Origin: a virus
IMG/VR virus record: IMGVR_UViG_3300031673_000139
Coordinates: 1 to 42,933 of that record
Direction: 5' to 3' (one strand)
Length of the DNA stretch: 42,933 bases
The position numbers and the translations under genes are program-made. Positions 3,670-42,933 of this stretch are shown here, piece by piece. A model generated the notes under the pieces. That model was not told the DNA's origin and did not search any database. It saw only the letters and a program-made list of their open reading frames with translations. The stretch's first letter is position 1; each line of letters opens with the position of its first letter.

Positions 3670-4151
3670 AAAATCAAAAACAAGCGCAAATAACGCAAGA
3701 GATAAAAGCATACCTCAAGACCATCTCGCCGCCGAATGCGCCAGAAATTCTCGCAGAGGTGCGCACACATACCGCCGGGACGGCTTGGAGTCCCGCCGCC
3801 CTCGAAAACGTAAAGGCTTGGGCGCTTCTTTTCTTGCTTCCGACCGCTACGGGTCACGCAAGTCGCGCGCAGAAGTTACTAGCCGAGAGATATTGCCTGA
3901 TGATAAGAAGGGATGCCGGGAACGCGGCAACCTGCGCACTCCTGAAGGCTTGGGGGATACCAGAAGGGGCCATCGGGTGGTGTGGCCTGATTTGCAGGCG
4001 CCAAGGGTGCTTGCGGACGGGGCGCTGCCCAAAGGGACTGCTGGGGGCCTCGTGCTACGACGACCATGATTATTACTATGATTATGATGGTTCGGTAAAT
4101 GCCCGCGAATATCTAGGACCAGAAAGGAGCCGTCAAGATGGGGACGGGTAG
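3666..4151 (+). CDS. Hypothetical protein with C-terminal Asp/Tyr-rich stretch
   Basis: A 161-residue protein of unknown function. ATG 3666 overlaps the upstream TGA. The body is helical (QAQITQEIKAYLKTI, LENVKAWALLFLL, RAQKLLAERYCLMIRR). It is followed by a cysteine-containing segment (GWCGLICRRQGCLRTGRC) and an unusual acidic/aromatic run (YDDHDYYYDYDG) before the end. It overlaps the next gene by 14 nt. Codon use here is more AT-rich than in the structural genes. Confidence 0.6.
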   Translation: MKNQKQAQITQEIKAYLKTISPPNAPEILAEVRTHTAGTAWSPAALENVKAWALLFLLPTATGHASRAQKLLAERYCLMIRRDAGNAATCALLKAWGIPEGAIGWCGLICRRQGCLRTGRCPKGLLGASCYDDHDYYYDYDGSVNAREYLGPERSRQDGDG

Positions 4152-4353
4152 GCCGAAAATGTGGGAAATTCTGAGGCCATATTTGCACATGGCTACTCCT
4201 GGGCAACACGCCGTTATCTATCTCCATATTCTAAAAGGACTTAGCTTGCGCGAAGCGGCCGAAAATTTGCGCATTTCGCGGGACGCCGCAGAGAAAAGAC
4301 AGCAGCGATTTATGCGCAAAATAGCTAAAAAGCCGTCCCTACCCCGCATATAG
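4138..4353 (+). CDS. Small HTH protein resembling sigma-70 region 4
   Basis: A 71-residue protein. Its middle resembles the helix-turn-helix of sigma-70 region 4: AVIYLHILKGLSLREAAENL, then ISRDAAEKRQQRFMRKI. It has no other sigma domain, so it cannot be a whole sigma factor. Small region-4-like proteins in phages often act as late-gene activators or anti-sigma-type factors. It is the second-last gene before a terminator and the start of the late operon, which suits a role in the early-to-late switch (inference). Start ATG 4138 follows AGGAGCC. The gene is AT-richer than its neighbours. Confidence 0.65.
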   Translation: MGTGRPKMWEILRPYLHMATPGQHAVIYLHILKGLSLREAAENLRISRDAAEKRQQRFMRKIAKKPSLPRI

Positions 4354-27398: not shown

Positions 27399-27435
27399 GC
27401 GCGCTGGCCCCCCTCCGGCCGGCGCGCTTATTTTT
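27399..27435 (+). terminator. Strong terminator between the convergent operons
   Basis: An 11-bp stem (27399-27409 with 27417-27427, one T-G pair) with a 7-nt loop is followed by TTATTTTT. It ends the rightward late operon just past the fibre gene. The T-run also contains the stop codon (TAA, read leftward) of the last gene of the leftward operon, so convergent genes end back to back. In the leftward direction no T-run follows, so it should work mainly rightward. Confidence 0.85.
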
Positions 27436-27595
27436 GCAGGGCGGCGATTATGCCCGGCACCTTAAGCGCCGGAATCGGCACAAGCCCGCGCTCCCAACGG
27501 TGGACCTCTTGAGCCGAACAGCCCAACCGCTCCGCCGCCTGCCGCTGCGTCAGCCCGGCCGCCTGCCTGAGCGCCCGGAGTTCCGCGCCGGTCAC
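27428..27595 (-). CDS. Small XRE-family HTH regulator
   Basis: A 55-residue protein made almost entirely of one helix-turn-helix: RALRQAAGLTQRQAAERLG, then SAQEVHRWERGLVPIPA. It is the typical Cro/C1 (XRE) DNA-binding fold. Without a C-terminal domain it is closer to a Cro-type repressor than to a cleavable one. GTG at 27595-27593 (leftward) overlaps the stop of the preceding gene. It is the last of five leftward genes and may regulate the 28662-28995 control region or bind elsewhere. Confidence 0.75.
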   Translation of the reverse strand: MTGAELRALRQAAGLTQRQAAERLGCSAQEVHRWERGLVPIPALKVPGIIAALQK

Positions 27596-28077: not shown

Positions 28078-28161
28078 TTCCCTTCCTCCTCCTGCCCGGC
28101 TCTCCGGCGCCGGGCGGCCTCGGTCCCCCTCGTTAGCTCCTTCGGCCGGCTCCGGGCCGGA

Positions 28162-28425
28162 CTACAAAACACGCCCCCAGGTCGCGCGAGAATTGTGCGA
28201 CCCCATGAGTATGCGCCCGTCACGTGACACGATGGCATCATCTCCATCGTACAGGCTCGCGCGGATCAGTGGATACACCGCCGTTTGGCCGCAGTCCTCC
28301 CAGCTGTCGGCGACCGCCAGTGACCGCGACCCGGCCACGGATAGCTCGCGGCACATCCTCCGCCAAATCGCCCGCAACGTCCGGCCCCGGTACTCCCGCC
28401 CCATCTCGTCACGCAGGATACGCAT
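28162..28425 (-). CDS. Small hypothetical protein
   Basis: An 87-residue protein of unknown function. The N-terminal half is basic (GREYRGRTLRAIWRRMCREL). The C-terminal half (ASLYDGDDAIVSRDGRILMG) looks like a small mixed alpha/beta domain. GGAGGAGG lies before ATG 28425 (leftward), again with the hairpin module (28442-28455). No known family is recognised. Confidence 0.5.
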   Translation of the reverse strand: MRILRDEMGREYRGRTLRAIWRRMCRELSVAGSRSLAVADSWEDCGQTAVYPLIRASLYDGDDAIVSRDGRILMGSHNSRATWGRVL

Positions 28426-28454
28426 CTGTCATCCTCCTCCTGCCGCTCGCGCGG

Positions 28455-28661
28455 CTACTTGCGCTCCGCCTTGGCGATGGCCGCGCGGTAAAAGGCTTCG
28501 GCCGTCGCGGCGTCGTAGACCTTCCGGGCTTCGGCCGTCGCGGCGTCGTAGACCTTCCGGGCTTCGGCCGTCGCGGCGCAGTAGACCTTCTGGGCTTCGG
28601 CCGTCGCGGCGCCGTAGACCTTCCGGGCTTCGGCCATCGCGGCGTCGTAGTACATCCCCAT
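28455..28661 (-). CDS. Tandem 11-residue-repeat protein
   Basis: A 68-residue protein made almost wholly of five 11-residue units of the type (A)xAEARKVYxA, each encoded by a 33-bp DNA repeat. The units differ at one or two sites (KVYD, KVYC, KVYG), the last being degenerate (AFYRAAIAKAERK). An 11-residue period fits a hendecad, three helical turns, so the protein probably forms an extended helix with a stripe of Ala and Tyr. It is the first gene of the leftward operon, 60 nt from the predicted start of transcription. Function is unknown. Similar AEAxKVYxAA peptides occur in other phage proteins. Confidence 0.6.
   Translation of the reverse strand: MGMYYDAAMAEARKVYGAATAEAQKVYCAATAEARKVYDAATAEARKVYDAATAEAFYRAAIAKAERK
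28495..28650 (-). repeat. 33-bp tandem repeat inside the repeat-protein gene
   Basis: Units of 33 bp start at 28495, 28528, 28561 and 28594, with a shorter fifth unit from 28627 to about 28650. The first two units are identical; the third and fourth differ at one to four positions around the codon before the conserved Lys-Val-Tyr. The period equals 11 codons, so copy-number change keeps the frame open. This points to slippage or unequal crossover as the way the gene length varies. Confidence 0.85.
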
Positions 28662-28731
28662 CGTCCTCTCCTCCTCCTGCCCGTCTCACCGGCGCCGGGC
28701 GGCCGTGCTCTTGTTCTCTACATATTGTATA

Positions 28732-28747
28732 AGCAAGGGTCATGCCA
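28732..28747 (-). promoter_or_regulatory. Sigma-54-type (-24/-12) promoter of the leftward operon
   Basis: On the minus strand the sequence TGGCATG-ACCC-TTGCT matches the sigma-54 consensus (TGGCACG-N4-TTGCW) at all positions but one (T for C). The invariant GG and GC are exactly 10 nt apart. It predicts a start near 28721, giving a 60-nt leader to ATG 28661 that contains the type-2 hairpin and the ribosome site. A TATACAAT sequence lies just downstream (28719-28733) but has no -35 partner. Confidence 0.7.
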
Positions 28748-28832
28748 CAGATGGCAGACAACCGCTAGTCTCGTAAGCCGCGCGTTTGCGCCACTTGCGC
28801 CACCAACGTAGAGCAACCGTAGCTTTTGGCTA

Positions 28833-28879
28833 TGACAAAAATTATCGCGGTGACAAAAAGTGTTACCCAAAATTGTCAC
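28833..28879. promoter_or_regulatory. Candidate enhancer (activator) sites between the divergent promoters
   Basis: TGACAAAAA occurs at 28833-28841 and again at 28851-28859 (18-bp period). GTGACAA at 28850-28856 is mirrored by TTGTCAC at 28873-28879, a 7-bp inverted repeat with a 16-nt gap. These AT-rich elements lie in an otherwise GC-rich genome, about -99 to -145 from the rightward and -112 to -158 from the leftward predicted start. Sigma-54 activators usually bind at such distances. They could instead be repressor operators. Confidence 0.55.
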
Positions 28880-28951
28880 TCGGTGGGCAAGTCCTGTATC
28901 CGTTTGCGCCCTAAGCCTTGCAATACCGGGGGGTTGCGAATAAAAAGCCTT

Positions 28952-28967
28952 TGGCACGGTGTTTGCT
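28952..28967 (+). promoter_or_regulatory. Sigma-54-type (-24/-12) promoter of the rightward early operon
   Basis: TGGCACG-GTGT-TTGCT is a perfect match to the sigma-54 (RpoN) consensus TGGCACG-N4-TTGCW, with the GG and GC dinucleotides 10 nt apart. The start is predicted near 28978, only 18 nt before ATG 28996, and the short leader is essentially the GGGAGGA ribosome site. The match is at the base of a long operon of replication and methyltransferase genes. No good -35/-10 pair is seen here. Confidence 0.75.
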
Positions 28968-28995
28968 ATATCCCTGTTGACTTGGGAGGATTAAG

Positions 28996-29328
28996 ATGTC
29001 AAGGCCACCAGCAAAAGACCACAGACCCGGACAGTTATATCTACCCGAAAAGATGCGTGATGCCCTGCGCATTCGCCTTTTATCTATTCAGAAAAACCGG
29101 TGTGCGATATGCGGCAAGGACTTTACCGGAGAGACCGGAAAGCTGCATATAGACCATGACCACACGACACGGCAAATTCGGGGACTTTTGTGCCGCTTCT
29201 GCAATCACGCCGTGGGGTGTCTCCGGGACTCGGTTGCAAGTGCACAAGCCCTGATAGCCTATCTTCGCTGTCCCCCGCTTGACCCCCCCGGTTGTCATCC
29301 GGTTCCGCCTTGGGAAAAAAGCAAGTGA
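28996..29328 (+). CDS. Recombination endonuclease VII-like HNH nuclease
   Basis: A 110-residue protein with the endonuclease VII pattern: CAICGKDF (C36/C39), then the HNH-like core LHIDHDHTTRQIRGLLCRFCN (H51-H56, C66/C69), and a helix ALIAYL. Endonuclease VII resolves branched DNA before packaging and debranches replication intermediates. It is the first gene after the rightward sigma-54-type promoter, with a strong GGGAGGA site. It overlaps the next GTG by 4 nt. Confidence 0.85.
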   Translation: MSRPPAKDHRPGQLYLPEKMRDALRIRLLSIQKNRCAICGKDFTGETGKLHIDHDHTTRQIRGLLCRFCNHAVGCLRDSVASAQALIAYLRCPPLDPPGCHPVPPWEKSK

Positions 29329-29777
29329 ACGGTGATACGATAACACGGCCCGCCAGTGACGCCCAGCCGGCGCCTCAGCCTCCCAAGTCTGAGCCGGCCA
29401 ATCCTGGCGGGCCACTTTCTGTTGGTCAACGGCTTGCGGCTGGCCGGGTTGCCGCCAGGGCGGCCCGCAAGGTTGCAAAAACGCAATGTAATCCGCCGCA
29501 GGACGCGACTTCTGGCCTCCACCCTAGCGCGATAGCCGTTCTTGCCGATTGCCCGTCCAGGTCACAGAAACGTTACCTTTTGGCCTTGTCGGGCCGTGGC
29601 GGGCTCAAGAACGCGGTCAAGGTCATGTGCCTGCATTGCTGCGGCTGGCAACTGCTGGAATCGGCGAAATGCACAGCCGCCGGTTGCCCGTTGACAGCTT
29701 TCAATCCCTACAAGGCGAAGGCAGAGCGGCGGCTTTCGGGCCGGGCGCTAGGAGAAAGCGGAGGGCACGGGGTATGA
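29325..29777 (+). CDS. Hypothetical protein with cysteine motif
   Basis: A 150-residue protein of unknown function starting at GTG 29325 (GTGA overlap). The first 50 residues are low complexity and Pro/Ala-rich (QPAPQPPKSEPANPGG). A C-terminal region has VMCLHCCGWQ, then SAKCTAAGCPL, giving a cluster of about five Cys that may bind metal. It ends with ERRLSGRALGESGGHGV, encoded by the first of three copies of a 15-bp element. Confidence 0.6.
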   Translation: MNGDTITRPASDAQPAPQPPKSEPANPGGPLSVGQRLAAGRVAARAARKVAKTQCNPPQDATSGLHPSAIAVLADCPSRSQKRYLLALSGRGGLKNAVKVMCLHCCGWQLLESAKCTAAGCPLTAFNPYKAKAERRLSGRALGESGGHGV

Positions 29778-30448: not shown

Positions 30449-30570
30449 CCGCGACACAGCGCGAAATCTGGCGGTCTACGCTGGTAATCGGCGCCGGGAT
30501 ACTGTTGCTGATCATGGCCTATTTCGGCGCGGACTGGATTGCGGACAAGCTGCAAGGGGGCGGGCGATGA
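30445..30570 (+). CDS. Small single-span membrane protein
   Basis: A 41-residue protein with one membrane segment (STLVIGAGILLLIMAYFGA) and short polar ends. GTG 30445 follows GGGAGGCGGAAC, a good ribosome site. Its function is unknown. Tiny one-span proteins in early operons often act as membrane effectors or superinfection factors; nothing here points to one role. The stop overlaps the next ATG. Confidence 0.55.
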   Translation: MTATQREIWRSTLVIGAGILLLIMAYFGADWIADKLQGGGR

Positions 30571-31127
30571 GCAAGATGCTGGATTTCTGCAAGGCGCACG
30601 GCGCTTGCAAGGACGCGGTTGATTGGCTAACCGCGGGGGGCATTGAGACGATGGCCGACGCCTGGGCAAAATGCCCCCGGGCAGACTGGATGCTGTGGGG
30701 GTTGCGCAAGCTGGGCAAGCTGACGAAGCGCCAAAGCGTGAAAATCGCCATCACGTTCGCCGTTCGCGCGTTGCCGCTTTTCGAGAAGCGCTACCCCGGA
30801 GACGAGAGGCCACGCAAGGCCATCGCGGCGGCGCGTAAGTGGCTGGCAAATCCGTCCGCCAAGAACGCCGCCGCCGCCTACGCCGCCGCCTACGCCGCCG
30901 ACGCCGCCGCCGCCTACGCCGGCGCCGCCGCCTACGCCGCCTACGCCGCCGCCGCCGCCGCCGACGCCGACGCCGCCGCCGCCTACGCCGACGCCGCCGC
31001 CGCCTACGCCGGCGCCGCCGCCTACGCCGCCGCCTACGCCGCCGCGCGGTGTGCCGAGTGGCTCTGGCAGGCGAATTATTTGCGCAAGGCATTCCCCAAG
31101 ATGTTTGCGAAAGGGGGCGGGCGATGA
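30567..31127 (+). CDS. Ala/Tyr-rich repeat protein
   Basis: A 186-residue protein in three parts. The N-terminal 95 residues are a helical domain (MLDFCKAHGACKDAVDWL, TMADAWAKCPRADWMLWGLR, ARKWLANPSAK). They resemble the N-terminus of putative immunity (Imm5-like) proteins found in phages. The central 60 residues are Ala-Tyr-Asp-Gly repeats (AAYAAAYAADAAAAYAGAAAY type). A final domain (CAEWLWQANYLRKAFPKMFA) ends it. The repeat is likely a long helix. ATG 30567 overlaps the upstream stop. Confidence 0.55.
   Translation: MSKMLDFCKAHGACKDAVDWLTAGGIETMADAWAKCPRADWMLWGLRKLGKLTKRQSVKIAITFAVRALPLFEKRYPGDERPRKAIAAARKWLANPSAKNAAAAYAAAYAADAAAAYAGAAAYAAYAAAAAADADAAAAYADAAAAYAGAAAYAAAYAAARCAEWLWQANYLRKAFPKMFAKGGGR
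30868..31047 (+). repeat. GCC-rich tandem repeat encoding Ala/Tyr blocks
   Basis: About 180 bp of GCC, TAC, GAC and GGC codons in imperfect repeats. The most regular unit is 12-15 bp (GCCGCCGCCTAC type), often with GACGCC. Its minus strand reads as long Arg-rich frames, which are artefacts of the composition. Such GC triplet runs are prone to slippage, so the length could vary between isolates. Confidence 0.75.
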
Positions 31128-42278: not shown

Positions 42279-42933
42279 CCCATGTTGACCTCTTTACCGG
42301 ACTCGGCGGATTCTCCCTTGCCGCCCGAGCCAACGGAATCCGCACCATCGCCATGTGCGAATGCGACCGGCGTTGCCGGAAATTCCTCGCCAAAGCCTGG
42401 CCCGGAATCCCCGTCCATCCCGACGTGCGAACCTTCCCCGGAGCCGACTATCGCGGGGCCTTCCTCCTCACTGCCGGGGTTCCCTGCCAGCCTGCATCCC
42501 GAGCCGGGAAGCAAGGAGGCGCGGGAGATGACCGCTGGCTCTGGCCGGCGGCTCTGGCGGCGATGGAATCTGTCCGGCCCGATTGGTGTCTATTCGAAAA
42601 CCCTCCTGGAATCGAAGACGTGGGGCTCGACGGAATACTTGCTGAAGTGGCGGGAAAAGGCTACCAAGTCGGGCCGGTTTTCGATATTCCAGCTTGCGCC
42701 GTGGACTCCCCGCAACTCCGGCACCGACTCTGGATTGTGGCCCACCGCGCTGGCGGCCGACCAGAAACAATCGGGGAGTCCGGCCAAGGGATTGACGTAC
42801 CTGACCCCGGCGCTCAAGTCCCTCTACCCGACGCCGGAGAAATCACTGACCGATGCGGGGCACACCAGCAGGTCGGGCCAGCGCAAGAGCGAGTTGATGC
42901 TGGGCGGGCTGGTGAGCGCGTATCCCACCCCGC
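42275..42933 (+). CDS. DNA cytosine-C5 methyltransferase, N-terminal part
   Basis: The gene starts at GTG 42275 (overlapping the helicase stop) and runs off the window; it continues across the circular join to 386 (302 residues in all). Motifs are present in order: motif I DLFTGLGGFSLA, motif IV VPCQPASRAGKQ with catalytic C71, motif VI FENPPG (ENP in place of the usual ENV, 108-110), and motif VIII QLRHRLWIVA (147-156). It methylates C5 of cytosine in an unknown target and is the third DNA methyltransferase of this operon. The last 136 bases lie within the terminal repeat. Confidence 0.9.
   Translation, partial: MTHVDLFTGLGGFSLAARANGIRTIAMCECDRRCRKFLAKAWPGIPVHPDVRTFPGADYRGAFLLTAGVPCQPASRAGKQGGAGDDRWLWPAALAAMESVRPDWCLFENPPGIEDVGLDGILAEVAGKGYQVGPVFDIPACAVDSPQLRHRLWIVAHRAGGRPETIGESGQGIDVPDPGAQVPLPDAGEITDRCGAHQQVGPAQERVDAGRAGERVSHP
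42798..42933. repeat. Right copy of the 136-bp direct terminal repeat
   Basis: These bases are identical to 1-136 except for C at 42807 against T at 10. The C5-methyltransferase frame continues through the join without a break, so the sequence is circular or circularly permuted. The Pro codon here (residue 178 of the enzyme) is Leu in the left copy. Confidence 0.9.

Follow-up and report, generated by a model that had tools for sequence, protein, structure and literature searches.

The window, by which we mean the whole 42,933-nucleotide stretch of viral DNA analysed here (IMG/VR record IMGVR_UViG_3300031673_000139), repeats its beginning at its end: positions 1–136 and 42,798–42,933 are identical at 135 of 136 positions. 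Because of this 136-bp overlap the record, although classed as linear, is read as a complete, circularly permuted genome, which it probably is, with a length of about 42.8 kb. A reading frame resembling a cytosine methyltransferase appears to cross the end junction. Upstream of the terminase (4,138–4,353) a 71-aa protein is encoded that shows a weak match to the sigma-70 region 4/ECF helix-turn-helix family (PF08281, E-value 5e-5, below cut-off). No tRNA was found. Searches of the collections by DNA, terminase, capsid, HNH protein or recombinase revealed no close relatives of the window, and four relatives with a Sak4-like gene have little in common with it beyond that gene.

Nearly all genes of the phage are located on the + strand. 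The exception is a 1.2-kb leftward cluster, and for this reason the divergent region from 28,662 to 28,995 is the obvious main control region. The first rightward gene (28,996–29,328, + strand) encodes a protein of the HNH/endonuclease VII family (PHROG 307, 2914, and others, E-values down to 1e-21) and is directly preceded by GGAGG. The first leftward gene (28,455–28,661, − strand), recognized as an open reading frame with coding composition, encodes a 68-aa protein consisting of repeats of approximately 11 residues, and the last one (27,428–27,595, − strand) encodes a 55-aa XRE-type helix-turn-helix protein (PF13560, E-value 1e-13; PF01381, E-value 3e-9). Within the leftward cluster a 36-bp stretch containing a ribosome-binding leader is repeated (94%) at 28,084–28,119 and 28,669–28,704, which suggests a duplication of the leader. 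Proteins built from short repeats are encoded at 30,567–31,127 and at 28,455–28,661 (AAAYAAAYA type; approximately 11-residue DAATAEARKVY units).

Two predicted sigma-54 promoters face outward from the control region. The rightward one, TGGCACGGTGTTTGCT (28,952–28,967, + strand; predicted +1 at 28,978), is the best of the window (score 19.5) and a perfect match to TGGCAC-N5-TTGCW; the leftward one, TGGCATGACCCTTGCT (28,732–28,747, − strand; predicted +1 at 28,721), is the second best (score 18.0) and has one mismatch. The predicted starts were set 12 nt beyond the −12 GC of each site. For comparison, the maximum score across 12 Markov sequences was 16.4. The criterion for a sigma-54 promoter, TGGCAC-N5-TTGCW with exact spacing, is met at both sites, RpoN dependence being predicted without expression data. 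A consensus scan of 28,400–29,400 for a sigma-70 promoter was negative.

Between these promoters lies a cluster of short repeats. TGACAAAAA is found at 28,833–28,841 and 28,851–28,859, with a period of 18 bp and without any further exact copy in the 42.9-kb window, and an inverted TTGTCAC is found at 28,873–28,879. The stretch from 28,831 to 28,882 has a GC content of 36.5% versus 63.1% for the window as a whole, which places it among the lowest 0.07% of all 52-bp segments. The initial annotation had described two direct and one inverted repeat at exactly these positions and had pointed out an AT-rich cluster in a GC-rich genome, and both descriptions are borne out. It had missed, however, that the second copy of TGACAAAAA is one half of a longer dyad, GGTGACA-AAAAG-TGTTACC (28,849–28,867). 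The short repeat TTGCGCCAC is also present twice near the cluster.

As single 9-mers the repeats are not compelling: with at most one mismatch TGACAAAAA occurs four times in the window, where 4.8 occurrences are expected. Recast as 15-bp dyads of the form TGACA-N5-TGTCA, they are the top two such dyads genome-wide (42.9 kb). In a matrix derived from dyads of bacterial pilA promoters alone and then applied to the window, the longer dyad (core 28,851–28,865, + strand; one mismatch) ranks first with a score of 19.0, and its neighbor, TGACA-AAAAT-TATCG (28,833–28,847, + strand; two mismatches), ranks second with 18.3. A weak third dyad, TACCC-AAAAT-TGTCA (28,864–28,878, + strand; score 13.5, rank 4), has one good half-site, which is that of the inverted TTGTCAC. 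None of the dyads is perfect, and the centers of the first two are 18 bp apart. There is no other pair of dyads in the window with at most two mismatches each inside 30 bp. The combined score of the pair at 28,851 and 28,833 is 37.3, which is on a par with good examples from between divergent promoters (34.8–38.6).

The center of the dyad pair is 129 bp away from the rightward and 128 bp away from the leftward predicted +1 and thus located about midway between the outward-facing promoters, and the cluster (28,833–28,879) ends 72 bp short of the right −24/−12 element and begins 85 bp from the left one. The distances given earlier, −99 to −145 for the rightward and −112 to −158 for the leftward start, are correct for +1 at 28,978 and 28,721. 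For pilA promoters identified by means of the tandem motif, 86–212 bp (median 116 bp) separate the center from +1. A PilR-type upstream activating sequence should consist of tandem TGACA-N5-TGTCA dyads with A/T-rich spacers and should be located approximately 85–215 bp upstream of a sigma-54 start. Both criteria are met, the former with one and two mismatches and with a spacing of 18 bp, not 20–23 bp.

Tandem dyads of this kind, defined as two dyads 20–23 bp apart, are present at no fewer than 118 loci of bacterial genomes, i.e., at least at those listed here, most of which are from Desulfobacterota/Deltaproteobacteria and others from Acidobacteria, Aminicenantes, Magnetococcales, and Nitrospirae. 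Their consensus reads GTGACA-AWWWT-TGTCAC, in which both the A/T spacer and the G/C flanks emerged without being forced by the search pattern. Where sigma-54 sites are found within 250 bp of the dyads at the 118 loci listed, they point outward in 43 cases and inward in only 3. Judged by this difference in orientation, and thus by sequence alone, the tandem dyad is a sigma-54 enhancer. The first downstream gene is by far most commonly that of a type IV pilin: at 52 of the 118 loci listed a pilin gene starts within 600 bp, often with a sigma-54 site in between. A GAFTGA activator is encoded at 19 of the 118, often 780–930 bp upstream on the same strand. The activators of 8 of these 19 loci were scanned; they match NtrC-class response regulators and look like response-regulator/AAA+/HTH proteins. 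It should be noted that in the NCBIfam scan of the adjacent activators the matches to the NtrC/AtoC class remained below the curated cut-offs and that no listed model was named PilR. In 24 pilA-bearing genomes there are one to four tandem boxes each (only one in 22 of the 24), and a reversed control pattern was found in none.

To guard against circularity, 30 pilin genes were sampled via protein similarity, blind to the dyads, within a single phylum (99 genomes). Of these 30 genes, 15 have a dyad with no more than one mismatch in the 400 bp upstream, versus none of 30 control segments, and there is usually a sigma-54 site between the dyad and the gene. Natural dyads upstream of pilin genes can be imperfect in the manner of those in the window, for example in loci L355 (two dyads with one mismatch each), L359 (TGACATTTTTTGTTA), and L368. 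The pilin context and the blind sample make a PilR-type upstream activating sequence the likeliest identity of the dyad, PilR being assigned from gene context only, without binding data.

In the absence of close relatives of the window, viral contigs were searched by promoter geometry, i.e., for divergent sigma-54 pairs 190–220 bp apart. There were 65 matches versus 42 for a convergent control pattern. The number of pairs is therefore only weak evidence and was not used; the argument rests instead on the orientation of the dyads, the pilin context, and the blind sample of pilin genes. Three AT-rich loci among the matches, L030, L065, and L082, have tandem TGACA-N5-TGTCA dyads between divergent sigma-54 promoters, and it was there that the tandem form was first recognized. 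Other arrangements were seen as well: a central repeat of another kind, TAGCATTTTGCAACA, to which a different activator might bind, between divergent sigma-54 sites (L026, L035, L038, L040, L051, L055, L063, L067); dyads with the opposite order of arms, of the CTGTCAAAATTTTGACAG type, also between divergent sigma-54 sites, which could be either a related site or one for a repressor (L021, L025, L059, L071); and intergenic regions packed with several sigma-54 consensus sites that stand back to back and face both ways (L036, L045, L054, L074, L075).

Searching with the motif only, as two dyads 20–23 bp apart, yielded 91 viral stretches, and spacings of 16–19 bp yielded 31. The spacing of 18 bp is rarer in phages, but L340 and L346 have it together with outward sigma-54 promoters. 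Sigma-54 sites within 250 bp of the dyads point outward at 31 of 90 phage loci and inward at 2. Pilin starts within 600 bp and GAFTGA activators nearby are absent from all 90 phage loci with the box. A divergent layout like that of the window is found in L030, L065, L082, and L136, the last belonging to a contractile-tailed phage (tail sheath, tape measure) in which the enhancer center is 136 and 140 bp away from the two starts. The box is combined with an outward sigma-54 promoter at 34 phage loci, which fall into 16 groups without shared genes in the segments compared. The window shows only weak matches to box-bearing loci (HNH, methyltransferase, helicase) and therefore does not belong to their lineages. 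The observed recurrence in 16 gene-unrelated groups, with the window outside of them, suggests that the box was acquired by phages repeatedly and independently.

We conclude with good, albeit not full, confidence that the cluster in the window is a PilR-type upstream activating sequence serving both divergent sigma-54 promoters via a host activator. That two divergent sigma-54 promoters have one enhancer in common had already been proposed in the initial annotation. The proposal is strengthened in that the flanking promoters are the top two sigma-54 sites of the window, without a sigma-70 promoter in the region, in that the pilA matrix ranks the cluster first, and in that sigma-54 sites elsewhere lie outward of the dyads and almost never inward. 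It had also been stated that the genome lacks an AAA+ enhancer-binding activator and that one from the host would be needed. Indeed, PF00158 (sigma-54 activator) is absent everywhere in the apparently complete record, and for the host activator, which had been left unidentified, PilR is now indicated.

Other explanations have to be considered. An AT-rich intergenic stretch could contain such repeats by chance, the more so as one-mismatch copies of TGACAAAAA are not enriched and other short repeats are found nearby. The pair score of 37.3, however, was reached in none of 200 shuffles (mean 12.6, sd 3.1); inside the 204-bp intergenic insert, with the composition kept, p was 0.003, which is the floor of the test; and the cluster is equidistant from both promoters. 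The repeats are thereby confirmed to be real and far beyond chance, and an accidental origin can be very nearly dismissed. The cluster could also serve as an operator through which the small XRE protein of the phage itself represses or modulates the divergent promoters, in which case the likeness of the cluster to a PilR box would be coincidental. The XRE gene is the last of the leftward operon, XRE operators typically have palindromic half-sites, and the differently spaced dyad CTGTCAAAATTTTGACAG in L021 and in L025/L059/L071 could be a repressor operator. But a repressor bound approximately 130 bp away from both starts would not directly block the polymerase, and the gaps of 72 and 85 bp do not allow the overlap with the repressed promoter that such an operator should have. 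The fit to a matrix made from bacterial pilA promoters alone and the recurrence of the motif ahead of sigma-54 promoters in phages that have no genes in common also make an XRE operator quite improbable.

A third possibility concerns not the function of the cluster but the identity of the activator: the site could serve another enhancer-binding protein of the host that has the TGACA-N5-TGTCA dyad in common with PilR. Related activators can have similar sites, 66 of the 118 genome loci listed have no pilin gene within 600 bp, and, as judged by eye, some dyads precede other genes (HD-domain-like in L195, glutamate-synthase-like in L211). We nevertheless regard another activator as unlikely, since a pilin gene is by far the commonest downstream gene at the loci listed and since the motif was recovered by blind sampling of pilin genes.

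If the cluster does act as an upstream activating sequence of the PilR type, two to three of its A-tract dyads would be bound by an NtrC-family activator of the host, for which the type IV pilus regulator PilR is the likeliest candidate, binding being inferred from the sites. DNA looping, which is likewise inferred, would bring the cluster-bound activator into contact with sigma-54 RNA polymerase poised at the two promoters, which would then be opened by the ATPase of the activator, activation being deduced and not observed. The leftward output would be the small operon with the XRE gene; to the right, the HNH nuclease would come first, followed by the replication and structural genes, all on one strand. 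As the phage is without a PF00158 activator, transcription of either operon from these promoters is not expected in a host that lacks an active activator, although the dependence of both operons is an inference, too.

Gene expression of this phage, and seemingly of many unrelated ones, may be confined to cells with an active pilus regulator. In Pseudomonas aeruginosa PilR activity is high in the absence of pilin (PMC6058289), and a phage wired to PilR could therefore sense the state of the pili; use of the pilus as receptor is not established. It is conceivable that many unrelated phages have independently put key control regions under host PilR via sigma-54 promoters, without an activator of their own, so that their gene expression reads the pilus state and is possibly coupled to the availability of pilus receptors. 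On this proposal, in which the biological purpose is inferred, we find the arguments evenly poised. If true, infection depends on a specific host signalling system, and phage gene expression is tied to pilus production. The sole obvious divergent control region of a complete phage then consists of sigma-54 promoters plus a pilus-regulator box, and the motif can be used to find such phages and to predict PilR-bearing, piliated hosts.

A literature search did not find the dyad motif string, which is also absent from the text of the Desulfovibrio sigma-54 regulome paper, nor any paper on phage control regions driven by PilR or sigma-54, most subscription journals being outside the search. Activation of pilA by PilR via sigma-54 is established (PMC6058289 and references therein). 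PilR sites at pilA of P. aeruginosa (Jin, 1994) and 54 predicted PilR loci in G. sulfurreducens (Krushkal, 2010) are given here as cited in PMC6058289. In PilS-PilR/sigma-54 control of pilA (P. aeruginosa, Geobacter, Myxococcus, Dichelobacter, Kingella) the activator site is located upstream of a −24/−12 promoter as it is in the window, where, however, the site belongs to a phage, whose genes it drives, and is common to two divergent promoters. The hallmarks of PilR sites in P. aeruginosa, TGT-N11-AGA and GTCT elements (PMC6058289), are worded differently from TGACA-N5-TGTCA, and identity with published PilR site models is not established.

Divergent sigma-54 operons with one common activator site are found in Desulfovibrio vulgaris (type III secretion operons, DVUA0100; orp operons), but there the genes are chromosomal or plasmid-borne and the activator is encoded by the cell or the same operon, whereas the window is from a phage without an activator. 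In the usual description, a phage control region is made up of sigma-70 promoters and repressors of the phage. The control region of the window resembles that of the lambda type (CI/Cro) in that divergent promoters lie between a small leftward XRE operon and the main rightward operon; it differs in having sigma-54 promoters and a distant central enhancer, whereas lambda-type regions have sigma-70 promoters with overlapping operators.
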